Positions 29,568 through 35,536 are shown, counted from the first letter of the stretch. The stretch is 64,000 nt of DNA from Geodermatophilus bullaregiensis (GCF_016907675.1 NZ_JAFBCJ010000001.1:4960001-5024000); one strand, 5' to 3'. The notes: generated by a model from the sequence alone, not told the origin. Program-made: numbers and translations.

Positions 29568-30278
29568 ATGAGCGCACGATCCAGGCGTGCAGCCAGTCCT
29601 CTGGCCACGCTGGGGGCCGTCGTCCTGCTGACCGTGGTGCTCTTCGCGGCCAACAGCCGCGTCGACCCCGCGGCGAGCACGGCGCCGGCGTACCCGGGGA
29701 CCGGCGGTGCGGAGACGTCGACGGCGCCCCCGTCCGCCGAGCCGACCCCGGAGCCGCCCGCGGAGCCGACACCGGCGCCGAGCCCGCCGGCGGCGCTGCA
29801 GGCCGTGTACGCCGGCGTGACCAGCGGCGGGGAGGCGACCATCGCGATGGCCGTCGACGACGACCAGGTCGCGGCCTACCTCTGCGACGGCGCCGCCATC
29901 GAGGCGTGGCTGCAGGGCACCGTGGACGGCGACACCGTCACGCTGACCGGCCGCAACGGCGCCGGGCTCTCCGGGTCGGTCACCGACGGGGCCGTCTTCG
30001 GCACCGTCACCACGAGCTCCGGGCTGACGCTGCCGTTCTCCGCGGCGGAGTCCCAGCCGCCCGCGGGCGTGTACGAGTCCCGCACGACCCTCGACGGGCT
30101 GGCGACGCGGATCGGCTGGGCGGTGCTGCCCGACGGGACGCAGGTCGGCGTCGCGACCGTCGGCGACACCAAGCGCGAGGCGCCGCCCCTGGACCTGACC
30201 GACGGCAGCTTCGAGATCGACGGGTCCCCGGGCACCGCCGAGCCCGTCGACGGCTCCGACACCGTCGTCGGCGGCTGA
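29568..30278 (+). CDS. Membrane-anchored extracytoplasmic protein of unknown function
   Basis: 236 aa. An N-terminal helix (ATLGAVVLLTVVLFAANS) anchors or exports it, followed by a Pro/Glu/Thr linker (about 35-70) and a beta-rich domain with DDDQVAAYLCDGAAIEAWLQ, GTVDGDTVTLTGRNGAGLSG and RIGWAVLPDGTQVGVATVG. I have seen this arrangement in uncharacterised actinobacterial secreted proteins but know no function. It heads the redox operon: 89 bases to the DUF6529-like gene. Confidence 0.75.
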   Translation: MSARSRRAASPLATLGAVVLLTVVLFAANSRVDPAASTAPAYPGTGGAETSTAPPSAEPTPEPPAEPTPAPSPPAALQAVYAGVTSGGEATIAMAVDDDQVAAYLCDGAAIEAWLQGTVDGDTVTLTGRNGAGLSGSVTDGAVFGTVTTSSGLTLPFSAAESQPPAGVYESRTTLDGLATRIGWAVLPDGTQVGVATVGDTKREAPPLDLTDGSFEIDGSPGTAEPVDGSDTVVGG

Positions 30279-30367
30279 GACCGCGCCCCGACGACCGCCC
30301 CGACGCCCGACCGTCCCGACACCCTGCTGGTCCCACCGGCCGTCGCGCACGCGAGGAGACCACCGTC

Positions 30368-31003
30368 ATGACCCACACCCGACCGCCGGTCGACACCCCG
30401 GCACCGCCTCCGGGGGCTCCGGCTCCCGAGCCTCCGGCCGGGGCGGTCGCCCCGCGTCCCCGGCTGCGCGCCGAGCCGCGCGACGCGTTCCGGCTGCCCC
30501 TGCTGACCTTCCTGCTCGCCGGCTGCGCCGTCGCGCTCGTGCTGGGCGTCTACGCCGCCGAGCACGAGCCGGCCGGCTACTCGCTCGACGTCCCGGGGTT
30601 CTCCTCGCCGCTCTACGTCAAGGCGTGGCTCACCACCGCGGCCGCCGTGGCCGGCGTGGTGCAGCTGCTCACGGCGGCCCGCATGCACGACGCCGGGGCC
30701 CCGCCCTGGACGCGCACCGCGCACCGGTGGTCGGGCCGGCTGGCCGTGGTGCTCACCGTCCCGGTCGTCGTGCACTGCGTGTACGCGCTCGGCTTCCAGG
30801 CCGGCTCGACGCGGGCCCTGGTCCACTCCGCCCTGGGGTGCTTCTTCTACGGCGTCTTCGTCACCAAGATGCTGGCGCTCACCCGCCGCGGCCTGCCGCG
30901 CTGGGTCGTCCCGGTGCTCGGCGGGGCGGTCTTCACCGGCCTGATCGGGCTGTGGCTCACCTCGTCGCTGTGGGTCTTCACCAGCAGCGGCTTCCGCCTC
31001 TGA
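30368..31003 (+). CDS. Four-helix membrane protein, DUF6529-like, possible b-type heme protein
   Basis: 211 aa. Pro-rich cytosolic N terminus (1-38), then four helices at about 42-62, 84-104, 123-143 and 153-172, with a fifth hydrophobic stretch at 180-203. His119, His136 and His153 sit at helix ends or inside helices, as in cytochrome b561-like proteins, so heme binding is plausible but inferred. Its place directly before an Fe-S/FAD oxidoreductase supports a role in transmembrane electron transfer. GAGGAG precedes the ATG by about ten bases. Confidence 0.8.
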   Translation: MTHTRPPVDTPAPPPGAPAPEPPAGAVAPRPRLRAEPRDAFRLPLLTFLLAGCAVALVLGVYAAEHEPAGYSLDVPGFSSPLYVKAWLTTAAAVAGVVQLLTAARMHDAGAPPWTRTAHRWSGRLAVVLTVPVVVHCVYALGFQAGSTRALVHSALGCFFYGVFVTKMLALTRRGLPRWVVPVLGGAVFTGLIGLWLTSSLWVFTSSGFRL

Positions 31004-31047
31004 CGCGCCGCCCGACGGCGGCGCGACCCTCCCGGAGGGAGCGACCC

Positions 31048-31089
31048 ATGCCCGCGTCCACCACCCCGACCCGGCGGGCCGAGCGGTGA
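31048..31089 (+). CDS. 13-codon mini-ORF coupled to the oxidoreductase
   Basis: GGAGGGA (31034-31040) is ideally spaced from the ATG at 31048. The peptide is MPASTTPTRRAER; its TGA overlaps the next gene's GTG as GTGA. The oxidoreductase start lacks a ribosome site, so this mini-ORF probably delivers ribosomes to it. The peptide could also be functional or the remnant of a lost gene. Confidence 0.55.
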   Translation: MPASTTPTRRAER

Positions 31090-34000
31090 GCAGCCCGCCG
31101 GTCATCGAGCTCCGGGAGCGCGGCCGCGAGCCGCGCCGGATCGCGCTGACCCGCGCGCTGGAGGTCGGCCGCGACCCCGAGGGGCTCGCCCTCGCCGACG
31201 ACCGGGTCTCGCGCCGCCACCTGCGGCTGGTGCCCAGCCCGGTCGCCCTGTCGCTGGTCGACCTCGGCAGCCGCAACGGCACCCTGGTCAACGGGCTGCC
31301 GGTCACCGGCCGGGTCACCCTGGAGGCCGGCGACGTCGTCCGCCTCGGCGACACCGAGATCGTCGTCATCGGCCGGCCCGAGCGCATCCCGGTGCCCGCG
31401 GGCTCGCGGGAGACGGTGCTCGCCGGCGGCGCCGGGGTGGCCCTGCCGCCCCCGCCGCCCCCGCCGGCGCCCCCGGCCGCCCCGTCGCGCGTGGCGGCGA
31501 CCTGGGACCGGGTCCTGGGCCGCACCAACCGGCCGGGCGAGGACCTCTTCCCCGTCTACACCGAGATGCGCACCCGCGTCCCGCTGTGGGTGTGGCGGGC
31601 GATCAGGGTGGTCAGCGTGCTGGCCTACGTCGCGCTGTGCGTGGCGCTGTTCGTGCGGCCGGCGGGCGGGTTGTTCGTCTTCTTCGGGATCGTCGTGCCG
31701 CTGCTGCCGCTGCTGTTCTTCGTGGCGCCCGGCGTGTGGCGGAACGTCTGCCCGCTGGCGTCGGCCAACCAGACGCCGCGCGTCCTCGGGTTCAGCCTGG
31801 GGCGCACCCTGCCCGAGGGCTTCCGCCGCCGTGCCTTCGTCGTCGCGATGGTGCTGTTCTTCGGCCTCGCCGGCGCCCGGCTGGCGGTGTTCAACGACAG
31901 CGGGACGGCGACCGGCGTCCTGCTCTCCGTCGTCATCACCGCGGCCTTCCTCGGCGGCCTGCTGTTCAAGGGCAAGAGCGGCTGGTGCAGCCAGATCTGC
32001 CCGCTGCTGCCGCTGCAGCGCGTGTACGGGCAGACGCCGTTCGTCCGGGTGCCCAACAGCCACTGCCGGCCCTGCGTCGCCTGCACCACCAACTGCTACG
32101 ACTTCGCCCCGATCGGCGCCTACCAGGCCGACCTGCACGAGGACGACCCCGTGTGGACCGGACCGCGCAGGCTCTTCGTCGGCGCGCTGCCCGGTTTCGT
32201 GCTCGGCTTCTTCGTCCTCGCCGGCGCCGGCGACCGGGCACTGACGACGACCTACGGCGAGCTGGCCCTGTTCTTCCTCGGCAGCGTCGGGCTGTTCTAC
32301 GCCGTGCAGGCGCTGCTGCCGCTGAGCGCGTCGGTGGTCGTCGCCCTGTGGGCCGCCGCCGCGATCAACCTCTTCTACTGGTTCGCCGGCCCGGTCCTCG
32401 CGGACTCCTTCGCCACGGTCACCGGCGTCGAGGCGCCGTGGCTGCGGTGGCCGGTCTCGGCGCTGGTGCTCGTGCTGTCGCTGCTGTGGATCGCGCGCAC
32501 CGCGGTCAAGGAGCGCCAGTACCTGCAGCAGTTCCACCCGGAGCTGCTGCCGGTGGTCCCGGTCAGCCGGCCGGCGCCGGAGGCGGCTGCGCAGGCGCCC
32601 GCGGAGGAGGAGGCGGACACCGCCGAGGTGCGCTTCCCCGGCAGCGACACCGTCGTCGAGGGCGAGGTCGGGACCAGCCTGCTGGAGACCGCGGAGAAGG
32701 CGGGCCTGCCGATCGAGGCCGGCTGCCGGATGGGCGTGTGCGGCTCCGACCCGGTCGCCGTCCTCGAGGGGGCCTCCTGCCTGTCCGAGCCGGAGGACGA
32801 GGAGCTGTCCACGCTGCGCCGGCTGGGACTGGCCCCGAACACCCGCATGGCCTGCTCGGCGCGGATCCGGTCGGGGCCGGTGACGGTCTCGCTGACCCCC
32901 GAGCCCGGCGGCCCGGTCGACGGCGACGTCCCCCTCGAGTTCGACCGGTCGATCGTCAGCTGCGTCGTCCTCGGCAACGGCATCGCCGGGGTGACCGCCG
33001 CGGACTTCCTCCGGCGCGGCCACCCCGAGTGCGAGATCCACGTGGTCGGGCAGGAGCCGCACGCGCTCTACAACCGGATGGGCATCTCCCGGCTGGTCTA
33101 CGGCCGGTCGGCCATGCAGGGTCTCTACCTGCTGCCCGACACCTGGTACGACGACCACCAGGTCACCGCCTGGCTCAACACCGTCGCCACCCGGATCGAC
33201 CTGGAGACCCGGCGGGTGTTCCTCGGCACCGGCGACGTGCTGCCCTACGACCGGCTGATCCTGGCCATGGGCAGCAGGAGCGTCGAGCCGCCCGTCGAGG
33301 GGTTCGGCCTGCCCGGCAGCAGCGTGCTGCGCTCGGCGGCCGACGCCGCCGCGCTGCGCAGCCACGTCCAGCGCCACGGCGGCCGCGACGCCGTCGTCGC
33401 CGGCGGCGGGCTGCTGGGCCTGGAGGCCGCGCACGCGCTGCTCGAGCTGGGCCTGCGGGTCACCGTCCTGGAGCGCGGGTCCCGACTGCTCTCGCGTCAG
33501 ATCGACCCGCGCGCCAGCGAGCTGGTCGACGCCTGGTTCCGCCGGATCGGGCTGCAGGTGCTCTACCGCGCCGAGGCCCAGGCGCTCACCGGCGAGTCCC
33601 GGGTCACCGGCGTCCGGCTCGCCGACCGCCGGGCGCTGCGCTGCGACGTCTTCCTGGCCGCCGTCGGCATCCGCCCGGACGTCGACCTGGCCCGTGCGGC
33701 CGGCATCCCGGTGGGCAAGGGGGTGCTGGTCGACGACCGGATGGCCACCGCGGTGCCGGGCGTCTTCGCGGCCGGCGACGTCGCCGAGCAGGCCGGGCGA
33801 GTCTGGGGCCTGTGGCCCGTCGCGGCCAAGCAGGGCGAGGTCGCCGCGGTCAACGCGCTCGGCGGCAACGAGACGCTGAGCTCCGAGGTGCCCCCCACCC
33901 TGCTCAAGGGCGTCGGGCTCGACCTGTTCGCGGTCGGCCGCGTGGAGCCGCAACCGGGCGAGGAGGTGGTGGTCGACGAGGACGCGTCGCTGCCCTCCTA

Positions 34001-34205
34001 CCGGCGGCTGGTCCTCGCCGGGCGGACGGTCGCCGGCGGCGTCGTCCTCGGGCACCACCCCGAGGACGTCACCGCGGTGACCGCGGCGGTCAAGCGGCGG
34101 CTGGAGCTCGACGACGCCGTCCTCGCCGGGCTGCGGGCCGGCGACTGGCGGGCGCTGCGCGACGCCGGCCGGCGCCGGCCGCAGTCGCAGCCGGCGCCGG
34201 CCTGA
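31086..34205 (+). CDS. Fusion protein: FHA domain, NosR/NapH-like Fe-S membrane core, 2Fe-2S domain, FAD/NAD oxidoreductase
   Basis: 1,039 aa. (1) FHA domain about 20-95 with VGRD, Ser42/Arg44/His45 and SRNGT at 62-66, which binds phosphothreonine. (2) Poly-Pro linker 120-131. (3) Membrane core about 165-470 with some seven helices and NosR/NapH-like cysteines: Cys222 (NVCPL), Cys301/Cys305 (WCSQICP) and Cys327/330/333/337 (HCRPCVACTTNC), enough for 4Fe-4S clusters. (4) 2Fe-2S domain about 514-605 with Cys547, Cys552, Asp555, Cys565, Cys590. (5) Pyridine nucleotide-disulfide-type reductase about 622-1039 with LGNGIAGVTAADFL, VVAGGGLLGLEAAHALLELG and FAAGDVAEQ. It should pass electrons from NAD(P)H via FAD and Fe-S centres to the membrane. 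Start GTG overlaps the mini-ORF. Confidence 0.88.
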   Translation: MSSPPVIELRERGREPRRIALTRALEVGRDPEGLALADDRVSRRHLRLVPSPVALSLVDLGSRNGTLVNGLPVTGRVTLEAGDVVRLGDTEIVVIGRPERIPVPAGSRETVLAGGAGVALPPPPPPPAPPAAPSRVAATWDRVLGRTNRPGEDLFPVYTEMRTRVPLWVWRAIRVVSVLAYVALCVALFVRPAGGLFVFFGIVVPLLPLLFFVAPGVWRNVCPLASANQTPRVLGFSLGRTLPEGFRRRAFVVAMVLFFGLAGARLAVFNDSGTATGVLLSVVITAAFLGGLLFKGKSGWCSQICPLLPLQRVYGQTPFVRVPNSHCRPCVACTTNCYDFAPIGAYQADLHEDDPVWTGPRRLFVGALPGFVLGFFVLAGAGDRALTTTYGELALFFLGSVGLFYAVQALLPLSASVVVALWAAAAINLFYWFAGPVLADSFATVTGVEAPWLRWPVSALVLVLSLLWIARTAVKERQYLQQFHPELLPVVPVSRPAPEAAAQAPAEEEADTAEVRFPGSDTVVEGEVGTSLLETAEKAGLPIEAGCRMGVCGSDPVAVLEGASCLSEPEDEELSTLRRLGLAPNTRMACSARIRSGPVTVSLTPEPGGPVDGDVPLEFDRSIVSCVVLGNGIAGVTAADFLRRGHPECEIHVVGQEPHALYNRMGISRLVYGRSAMQGLYLLPDTWYDDHQVTAWLNTVATRIDLETRRVFLGTGDVLPYDRLILAMGSRSVEPPVEGFGLPGSSVLRSAADAAALRSHVQRHGGRDAVVAGGGLLGLEAAHALLELGLRVTVLERGSRLLSRQIDPRASELVDAWFRRIGLQVLYRAEAQALTGESRVTGVRLADRRALRCDVFLAAVGIRPDVDLARAAGIPVGKGVLVDDRMATAVPGVFAAGDVAEQAGRVWGLWPVAAKQGEVAAVNALGGNETLSSEVPPTLLKGVGLDLFAVGRVEPQPGEEVVVDEDASLPSYRRLVLAGRTVAGGVVLGHHPEDVTAVTAAVKRRLELDDAVLAGLRAGDWRALRDAGRRRPQSQPAPA

Positions 34206-34214
34206 TCCCCGGGG

Positions 34215-35300
34215 TCAGCCGGCGTCGGCCGCCTTCGTCGCGCGGAAGGTGAACACCTGCGTGCCGACGCGCAGGCTCCCGTCGGGCGGCAGCGGGGTGG
34301 GCTCGGTACCGATGCGGGTCCACTCCCGCGCTCCCGGGTCGGCGACGTAGGTGCCGCTGACCGAGGGCGCGTCCCGGACGTAGACCCGTCCGCCGTCGAC
34401 CGAGACGCGGGCGTGCACGCGGGAGACGAGGTTGCCCGGGTCGCGGATCACGACCGGGGAGGCCACCGCGCTGCGCACGTCCGGGTCGTTGTGCGGCTCG
34501 CGGCCGAGGACGTAGTCCCGGTCGAGCAGGACCGTGGGACCGCCGTCGCAGACCAGCGCGCCCACCGGCGCCGGCGCCAGCATCGTCTCCTGCAGCTGCG
34601 CCGGTTCCTGCGGGTGCACCGGGTCCTGCGACTCCGGCGCCTCGTGCCGGTGCGCCGTCAGGGCCGGCTCGGTCCTCCGGTCGGCGGGGACGTCCGGGGG
34701 CCGGGCGTCGGTGAGGGTGTCCCGCAGCGGCGCGGGCCCCGGGAGCGGGTCCCCGCCGGGTGGTGCGGCGCCCGCTGCGGCTCCGGCCGGTGCCGCGGCC
34801 GGGGGACCGTCGGCCTCCGCCGGGCTGAGCACGAACCCGCGCGCGGGCACCACGCCGTCCCGCAGCGCCGACCGGGGGTGCACCGCGGCCGGTGCCCCGG
34901 CCCCGTCCTCGACGGTCACCCGCGCGAAGGGCCGCACGACGACGTGGTCGACCCAGGTCAGCGCCTGCCGCCCGGAGAGCCGCGTGGTCCCCGAGGGGCC
35001 CTCCACCTGCGCCGACACCGCGCCCCGCAGCAGCACGACCACGCCGTCGGGGACCGGGGCGACCACTCCGAACGCGGTGCCGTCGGCGGCCGGCCGGCCG
35101 CCCACCCAGCCGCTCAGCCGCGCGGCGACCGCGCTGCCCGGCGGGTCCTCCGCCGCGGCGGCCTCGACCAGGCCGAGCAGCTCCTCGGTGGCGGCGCCGC
35201 CGTCCGCGCCGTCGTCGCGGACCAGGAGGACGACGTCGCCGAAGCGCGCCACCAGGCCGTCCCCCGGGGCCAGCCCGACCCGTGTCGTGCCGTCTGGCAT
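34215..35300 (-). CDS. C-terminal FHA-domain protein
   Basis: 361 aa. Residues about 265-350 are an FHA domain: DYVLGREPHNDPDVRSAV, NLVSRVHARVSVDGGRVYVR and SVSGTYV. The N-terminal half (about 1-150, DGLVARFGDVVLLVRDDGAD, DGTAFGVVAPVPDGVVVLLR) is not a recognised enzyme; a Pro/Ala-rich linker joins them. It probably binds phosphoproteins made by the adjacent kinase at 35603. It ends nine bases from the fusion gene's stop, tail to tail, and shares a 302-base gap with the kinase that also holds a TAGCCT -10-like site for this gene (35364-35369). Confidence 0.83.
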   Translation of the reverse strand: MPDGTTRVGLAPGDGLVARFGDVVLLVRDDGADGGAATEELLGLVEAAAAEDPPGSAVAARLSGWVGGRPAADGTAFGVVAPVPDGVVVLLRGAVSAQVEGPSGTTRLSGRQALTWVDHVVVRPFARVTVEDGAGAPAAVHPRSALRDGVVPARGFVLSPAEADGPPAAAPAGAAAGAAPPGGDPLPGPAPLRDTLTDARPPDVPADRRTEPALTAHRHEAPESQDPVHPQEPAQLQETMLAPAPVGALVCDGGPTVLLDRDYVLGREPHNDPDVRSAVASPVVIRDPGNLVSRVHARVSVDGGRVYVRDAPSVSGTYVADPGAREWTRIGTEPTPLPPDGSLRVGTQVFTFRATKAADAG

Positions 35301-35536
35301 GGCAGTTCCTCTCGACCGTGTGGACCGTGCCGCGCCTCCGCGCCCCCGTGGTCGGCGCGCCCAGGCTAGGGCCGGACGGCGCCGCGGAACAGGACGCCGG
35401 ACCCGCCGACGGAGGGCGCGCGAGACACCCCGTGGAGGGGCCGGCGGCCAGTACGATCCCGGTGCCAGCGATGCCGGAGTCATGGCCAGCCCGACCCGTC
35501 GGAGGCACCGCCGGCCGGGGTGGTCCGAGGAGTCCC

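Follow-up and report, generated by a model that had tools for sequence, protein, structure and literature searches.

An FHA-headed fusion of a membrane iron–sulfur core and a flavin reductase in Geodermatophilus: a candidate for signal-gated electron transfer

In most descriptions, bacterial respiration is regulated through gene expression and the supply of substrate. Could signaling also act directly on a membrane electron-transfer enzyme, through a reader carried in the enzyme's own chain? A locus in Geodermatophilus bullaregiensis raises this question. It lies within a 64,000-nucleotide stretch (NZ_JAFBCJ010000001.1:4960001-5024000; hereafter the window, whose numbering is used throughout) of a complete, single-contig genome of 5.2 Mb. 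Here a single gene joins an FHA domain, a membrane iron–sulfur (Fe-S) core, a [2Fe-2S] domain and a two-Rossmann reductase for flavin adenine dinucleotide (FAD) and nicotinamide adenine dinucleotide (NAD; NADH when reduced). To our minds there is an even chance that the product is a signal-gated membrane NADH oxidoreductase, in which electrons would pass from NADH through FAD, the [2Fe-2S] domain and the membrane Fe-S core to an acceptor, under the control of an FHA head that binds kinase-made phosphothreonine.

The gene begins with GTG and continues for 1,039 codons with zero internal stops. The same frame is kept end to end, unbroken and with all modules present, in four other Geodermatophilus species at 77-88% identity, bearing out the fused layout of FHA domain, Fe-S membrane core, 2Fe-2S domain and reductase that a first-pass annotation had described. 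Across the five species, the ratio of nonsynonymous to synonymous change (dN/dS) is 0.30-0.32 in the FHA domain, 0.27-0.31 in the membrane core, 0.39-0.44 in the 2Fe-2S domain and 0.22-0.35 in the flavin domain, with values of 0.40-0.82 in the two linkers. Because the frame is shared by five species and nonsynonymous change is restrained in every module, the open reading frame (ORF) is confirmed, at the level of sequence comparison, as a genuine gene rather than a chance one, with every folded module under purifying selection. A shadow ORF of 1,026 residues lies opposite it on the minus strand (30978-34058), and this GC-rich window has other long shadow ORFs. The first-pass annotation had also raised the prospect of a frameshift or assembly error between modules. 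Such an artefact is vanishingly improbable: frame and module order are identical in four other assemblies and in a member of another family (G816), quite apart from the completeness of the window's own genome. The wider comparison draws on nine actinobacterial fusions—five from Geodermatophilus, G816, and three without an FHA head (G778, G806 and G363, the last read from two overlapping contigs)—and, in other phyla, on plasmids only.

What the modules may do is best judged from their motifs. Pfam profile search, applied with Pfam cut-offs, was used to assign them, and places the FHA domain at residues 27-88 (E 3.4e-12; 51.3 bits against a cut-off of 20.7). Its nearest solved relative is FhaA of Mycobacterium tuberculosis (3po8, 3oun), and the residues of the phosphothreonine pocket—G28 and R29, S42, H45, and N64, G65 and T66—are present in all six FHA-first fusions. 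The pocket is intact, making the head a predicted phosphothreonine reader. In the linker beyond it, the tetrapeptide TVLA (T110), conserved in all five Geodermatophilus species, resembles a stretch of the neighboring FHA protein and was considered as a GarA-type phospho-site; since it is absent from G816, it was dropped as evidence.

At the opposite end of the chain, matches to Pyr_redox_2 (residues 625-917, E 8.6e-54) and Rubredoxin_C (residues 936-990, E 3.2e-8) agree with the complete two-Rossmann reductase first proposed. The FAD-binding GxGxxG, the NAD-binding GxGxxGxE with an acidic end to strand 2, and the GD motif read VVLGNGIAG, VVAGGGLLGLEAA...VTVLERG and VFAAGDVAE, and are conserved. 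A glutamate closing the second nucleotide-binding strand points to NADH in the Pyr_redox_2-type family; because this strand ends here in a glutamate, E796, the motif suggests NADH as the donor. The domain is closest to the N-terminal half of NirB and to ferredoxin-NAD reductases, the NirB model scoring E 6.6e-74 and 249.7 bits against a cut-off of 578 and being matched at profile positions 2-389 of 794 only. FAD-only matches from the first phylum search (about 173-217 bits) cover the flavin part alone and were set aside as paralogs of the NirB/ferredoxin-reductase type.

Between head and reductase lies the membrane core, for which eight transmembrane helices are predicted; charge and loop lengths place both termini, and the loops bearing C222, C301/C305 and C327-C337, on the cytoplasmic side. 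All seven cysteines previously placed in this multi-helix segment (C222, C301, C305, C327, C330, C333 and C337) were found, and together with H326, W218 and R219 they are invariant even in cyanobacterial and rhizobial relatives of 26-31% identity. The term NosR-like, applied to the core at first, has fared less well. NapH, NosR and RdhC have in common a membrane module carrying two CX3CP motifs, with two 4Fe-4S motifs added in NosR and NapH, and an extracytosolic domain binding flavin mononucleotide (FMN) in NosR and RdhC (PMC5928378). In the fusion core, only one CX3CP motif is full (C301-C305), the first retaining C222 alone with W218 in place of its first cysteine, and a single four-cysteine motif within the membrane domain (C327-C337) compares with the two C-terminal 4Fe-4S motifs of NosR and NapH. 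Pfam detects no extracytosolic FMN-binding domain in the fusion, where the FHA domain occupies the N-terminus. Profile matches are correspondingly faint: 23 bits against a cut-off of 234 for NapH and 21 against 213 for NapH/MauN (E 3e-5 and 2e-4, across the cysteine loop), and a Fer4_5 match at residues 280-314 (E 0.009) that falls under the Pfam cut-off. Judged by these motifs and profiles, the core is a distinct branch of the NapH superfamily and only distantly NosR-like. One candidate relative, G029, was rejected because its motifs differ and it is NapH-like only in a general way.

The Fer2 fold of the [2Fe-2S] domain, by comparison, stands as proposed (Pfam match at residues 519-593, E 1.2e-6, 28.8 bits against 21; PDB 9i2a, E 2.2e-11), with a point that had escaped the first-pass annotation: its third canonical cysteine is replaced by an aspartate, D555. 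The motif reads C547-RMGV-C552-GS-D555...C590 and so departs from the plant-type four-cysteine pattern C-x4-C-x2-C-xn-C. All nine actinobacterial fusions have aspartate at the third ligand position; in the cyanobacterial and rhizobial relatives, whose reductase is a separate protein, the normal cysteine is found there. Given that the aspartate is invariant, as are C547, C552 and C590, an Asp-ligated cluster appears likelier than decay. For cluster chemistry, the same residue provides a further and independent test case.

How widely is this arrangement shared? The core, 2Fe-2S and flavin domains follow one order in all nine actinobacterial fusions, and the six with an N-terminal FHA domain form one clade (support 99/99). 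On this tree the FHA-first form is of one origin, apart from the other FHA and cyclic-nucleotide (cNMP) domain attachments described below. The fusion occurs in 5 of 115 genomes of the Geodermatophilus family, all from the one genus, and is very rare in samples of 396 genomes from the phylum and 395 from the class; G816 is the only carrier among 121 genomes of its family, and G806 among 179 of its genus. So patchy a distribution fits an accessory, probably exchanged, module. Among 5.39 million open-access papers, none was found to describe the architecture, and their full text held nothing relevant on DUF6529, the family of an adjoining gene, or on FHA domains with ferredoxin or electron transfer. 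The earlier statement that no characterized protein has this order therefore holds for open-access papers, although with six FHA-first members the layout is not unique.

Comparison between genomes supplies the best evidence: signaling genes recur beside these fusions. In G816, from another family, the FHA-first fusion lies tail-to-tail with an FHA protein, as in Geodermatophilus. For the FHA-less fusions of G363, G778 and G806, the gene immediately upstream encodes a cNMP-binding domain in every case; the G806 locus also has a GAF histidine kinase and a response-regulator/class III cyclase no more than about 5 kb away. Further afield, plasmids of Rhizobium and Agrobacterium encode the same core with a C-terminal FHA domain and an adjoining FAD/NAD/2Fe-2S reductase; two cyanobacterial plasmids encode the core fused to a C-terminal cNMP domain; and on two Leptolyngbya boryana plasmids the core is flanked by a WD40 Ser/Thr kinase on one side and by a separate FHA-FAD-NAD-2Fe-2S reductase on the other. 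The flavin reductases that partner the core are of two different folds. Since cNMP genes adjoin the FHA-less fusions and FHA or cNMP domains take other positions in the distant relatives, a signal input appears to have been attached to the core repeatedly: these arrangements suggest that both a reader (FHA or cNMP) and a donor of the NAD(P)H/flavin/2Fe-2S kind were joined to it on more than one occasion and along different routes.

Several loci carry features of their own. On the Rhizobium and Agrobacterium plasmids (L043 6378-13003, L046 6465-12738), the core-FHA and reductase genes form a conserved block with a divergent MauG-type di-heme peroxidase and a two-component system. The kinase-WD40, core and reductase row of L. 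boryana (L045 4094-10901, L056 2445-12514) is flanked by RTX-repeat and CHRD-domain genes, and on an R. leguminosarum plasmid (L047 7638-14341) genes for GH15, GMC oxidoreductase and ferritin-like proteins come after a bare core. The membrane core of L058 is annotated as two pieces. Within the FHA region of the G816 locus (L099, 478-3678), a 19-residue stretch, SRNGTMLNGLPVRGQVVLA, occurs twice around an ambiguous base, probably as a scaffold-join artefact.

In all five Geodermatophilus species the surrounding block has the same order: a secreted protein, DUF6529, the fusion, an FHA protein on the opposite strand and a Ser/Thr kinase (Table 1). In the other Geodermatophilus, a search of 8 kb revealed neither of the window's next genes beyond the kinase, a phosphoglycerate-mutase-like gene and an antiporter. 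DUF6529 has three histidines in predicted helices that are kept across the phylum, and adjoins a Rieske protein in G074; a role as an uncharacterized b-type cytochrome-like protein binding b heme is plausible on this pattern. The pairing of its gene with that of the secreted protein (window 29568-31003) is conserved in several Actinobacteria (L084-L087), fusion-free genomes among them. Because it pairs in this way without the fusion, and is absent beside three of the fusions, DUF6529 was rejected as an obligatory acceptor. Directly ahead of the fusion, a short leader ORF with its own Shine-Dalgarno-like site encodes MPASTTPTRRAER and ends in a TGA that shares bases with the fusion's GTG start codon. 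It is found in three of the five species (that of the window, G. telluris and G. tzadiensis) and not in G. siccatus or G. poikilotrophus, where the fusions begin directly at ATG; translational coupling with the fusion is possible.

Table 1. Features of the fusion gene and its neighborhood, in window coordinates
Feature	Position	Strand	Basis or remark
Secreted/anchored protein, function unassigned	29568..30278	+	Pairs with DUF6529 also in fusion-free genomes
DUF6529 membrane protein, three conserved His	30368..31003	+	Directly upstream of fusion, same direction
Leader ORF, 13 residues, behind GGAGG site	31048..31089	+	Stop overlaps fusion's GTG start (GTGA)
FHA - membrane Fe-S core - [2Fe-2S] - FAD/NAD reductase fusion, 1,039 aa	31086..34205	+	ORF, Pfam, alignment, dN/dS
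FHA domain, residues 16-98	31131..31379	+	Pfam, structure-database search, alignment
Pro/Ala-rich linker, residues 99-154, weakly constrained	31380..31547	+	Alignment
Predicted eight-helix membrane core, residues 155-480, NapH-superfamily branch	31548..32525	+	Profile search, alignment, topology, tree
C222 in W-R-N-x-C-P, degenerate first CX3CP; invariant W218 at first-Cys position	31749..31751	+	Alignment
C301-x3-C305-P motif	31986..32000	+	Alignment
C327-x2-C330-x2-C333-x3-C337, [4Fe-4S]-type; invariant H326 just before	32064..32096	+	Alignment
Fer2-fold [2Fe-2S] domain, residues 512-605	32619..32900	+	Pfam, PDB search
D555, third ligand position of 2Fe-2S motif (others C547, C552, C590)	32748..32750	+	Alignment
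Two-Rossmann FAD/NAD reductase, residues 620-1039	32943..34202	+	Pfam, family profiles, alignment
Second FHA-domain protein, tail-to-tail with fusion; likewise in G816	34215..35483	-	Pfam, neighborhood
PknB-like Ser/Thr protein kinase, C-terminal hydrophobic (transmembrane-like) segment	35603..36916	+	Pfam, profiles

Taken together, these features outline a possible mechanism. NADH would reduce the FAD of the C-terminal domain, whose electrons could pass to the adjacent [2Fe-2S] domain, held by three cysteines and Asp555, and from there to the Fe-S center or centers of the eight-helix core, all on the cytoplasmic face. They would leave the chain for an acceptor in the membrane; the menaquinone pool is the likeliest, with the heme-like DUF6529 neighbor as an alternative in Geodermatophilus. 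The FHA head may bind phosphothreonine that the PknB-like kinase next door has placed on itself, on the neighboring FHA protein or on the linker of the fusion, and the kinase might thereby recruit or gate the reductase, the sequence being compatible with switching on, switching off or mere placement. Direction of flow, acceptor and gating are each something we infer. The first-pass annotation spoke of an activity switched by phosphorylation. An intact pocket, a kinase and second FHA protein in all five Geodermatophilus, and cNMP genes beside the FHA-less fusions all favor control through phosphothreonine; the switching itself is a supposition, since an FHA domain reads phosphothreonine on a partner or on its own chain.

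Several observations count against this mechanism. No acceptor site was identified in the fusion, and the description of it as self-contained is not supported: a quinone, or a partner such as DUF6529, would be required. DUF6529 does not adjoin the fusion in G816, G778 or G806. The rhizobial FHA versions lie near a two-component system, not an annotated Ser/Thr kinase, and the G816 contig ends inside the FHA protein, leaving the kinase position off the contig; a kinase match near a G816 contig end (C86) was rejected as the missing neighbor, being a two-kinase locus with PASTA-like sequence and not the expected arrangement. Finally, an AlphaFold2 model built from the five Geodermatophilus sequences was too poor to use (mean predicted local distance difference test score 36.6), and its helix boundaries alone were compared with hydropathy.

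Other readings of the same protein start from its membrane and cluster chemistry. Were it a true NosR/NapH/RdhC-type protein feeding a periplasmic reductase, the weak NapH and NapH/MauN matches over the cysteine loop would be expected; the lone cysteine in the first CX3CP, the single ferredoxin motif, the missing FMN domain and the lack of any recognized periplasmic reductase gene within the conserved block make this improbable. We regard as equally improbable that the cysteine-deficient 2Fe-2S domain holds no cluster, leaving a broken chain and an NADH reductase on a structural membrane domain. The exchange of the third ligand for aspartate throughout the fusions is what suggests such a loss, yet the invariance of all four positions fits a cluster with one aspartate ligand rather than decay, and in the split relatives the partner reductase still has a canonical 2Fe-2S domain.

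A stronger challenge concerns what the FHA head is for. Many bacterial FHA domains serve as scaffolds, and here the intact pocket has a kinase and another FHA protein for neighbors; the head could be a tether only, holding a constitutive reductase near phosphorylated membrane proteins such as these with turnover unchanged. We consider this unlikely, although it is the most credible of the alternatives, as the recurrence of FHA or cNMP-binding domains or genes next to one and the same core points to an input of some consequence. Somewhat less probable again is that information flows in reverse, the redox chain sensing the NADH or quinone state and an FHA-bound kinase relaying the signal. Fe-S and flavin chains are able to act as sensors, and kinases or cyclases are linked to the core in several lineages; FHA and cNMP domains, however, read signals made elsewhere and are not outputs, and conservation of the complete catalytic NADH/FAD module goes beyond what a sensor needs. 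Signal-gated electron transfer stays our preferred reading.

If that reading is right, signaling would gate electron flow directly and post-translationally, with a phosphothreonine reader in the enzyme's own chain, the kinase adjacent and, in relatives, a cNMP reader next door. A spectrophotometric assay with a single purified protein and a kinase would be enough to test the idea. More tentatively, and with the balance tipping somewhat against it, the fusion may represent a branch within a so far undescribed class of signal-gated membrane NADH oxidoreductases, whose core has been wired repeatedly to adjacent signaling—an FHA domain and Ser/Thr kinase, or a cNMP-binding protein and at least once a cyclase. 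Such wiring could let the cell switch an electron path on or off with no need for fresh transcription; the actinobacterial branch would use an Asp-ligated [2Fe-2S] relay. The in-cis FHA reader, its alternation with cNMP readers and the aspartate in the relay appear to be new. The separate parts are already known, as are NapH-like cores with changing partners (PMC8238504).

Among known systems, NapH, NosR and RdhC (PceC; PF12801, TIGR02163) resemble the fusion in their cytoplasmic-side cysteine loops with CX3CP-type and ferredoxin-type cluster motifs; the fusion, with eight predicted helices, differs in adding donor modules in cis (NADH/FAD and 2Fe-2S) and an FHA head. The NapH-like extracytosolic electron-transfer systems of Meheust et al. 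2021, defined by flavinylated extracytosolic FMN domains (PMC8238504), likewise have a modular membrane Fe-S core with changing partners. The fusion is without their FMN domains, and has cytosolic NADH and signaling inputs attached instead. Its reductase shares fold and cofactor motifs with ferredoxin-NAD reductases and the N-terminal half of NirB (Pyr_redox_2 and Rubredoxin_C), but falls below every family cut-off, is preceded in the chain by a membrane core and a 2Fe-2S domain, and is without the siroheme/nitrite domain of NirB. For the control of metabolic enzymes by FHA domains, GarA and OdhI are precedents. Together with FhaA, these actinobacterial regulators have the same FHA fold and phosphothreonine pocket as the fusion; whereas they work in trans, the FHA domain of the fusion is part of the membrane oxidoreductase chain itself.

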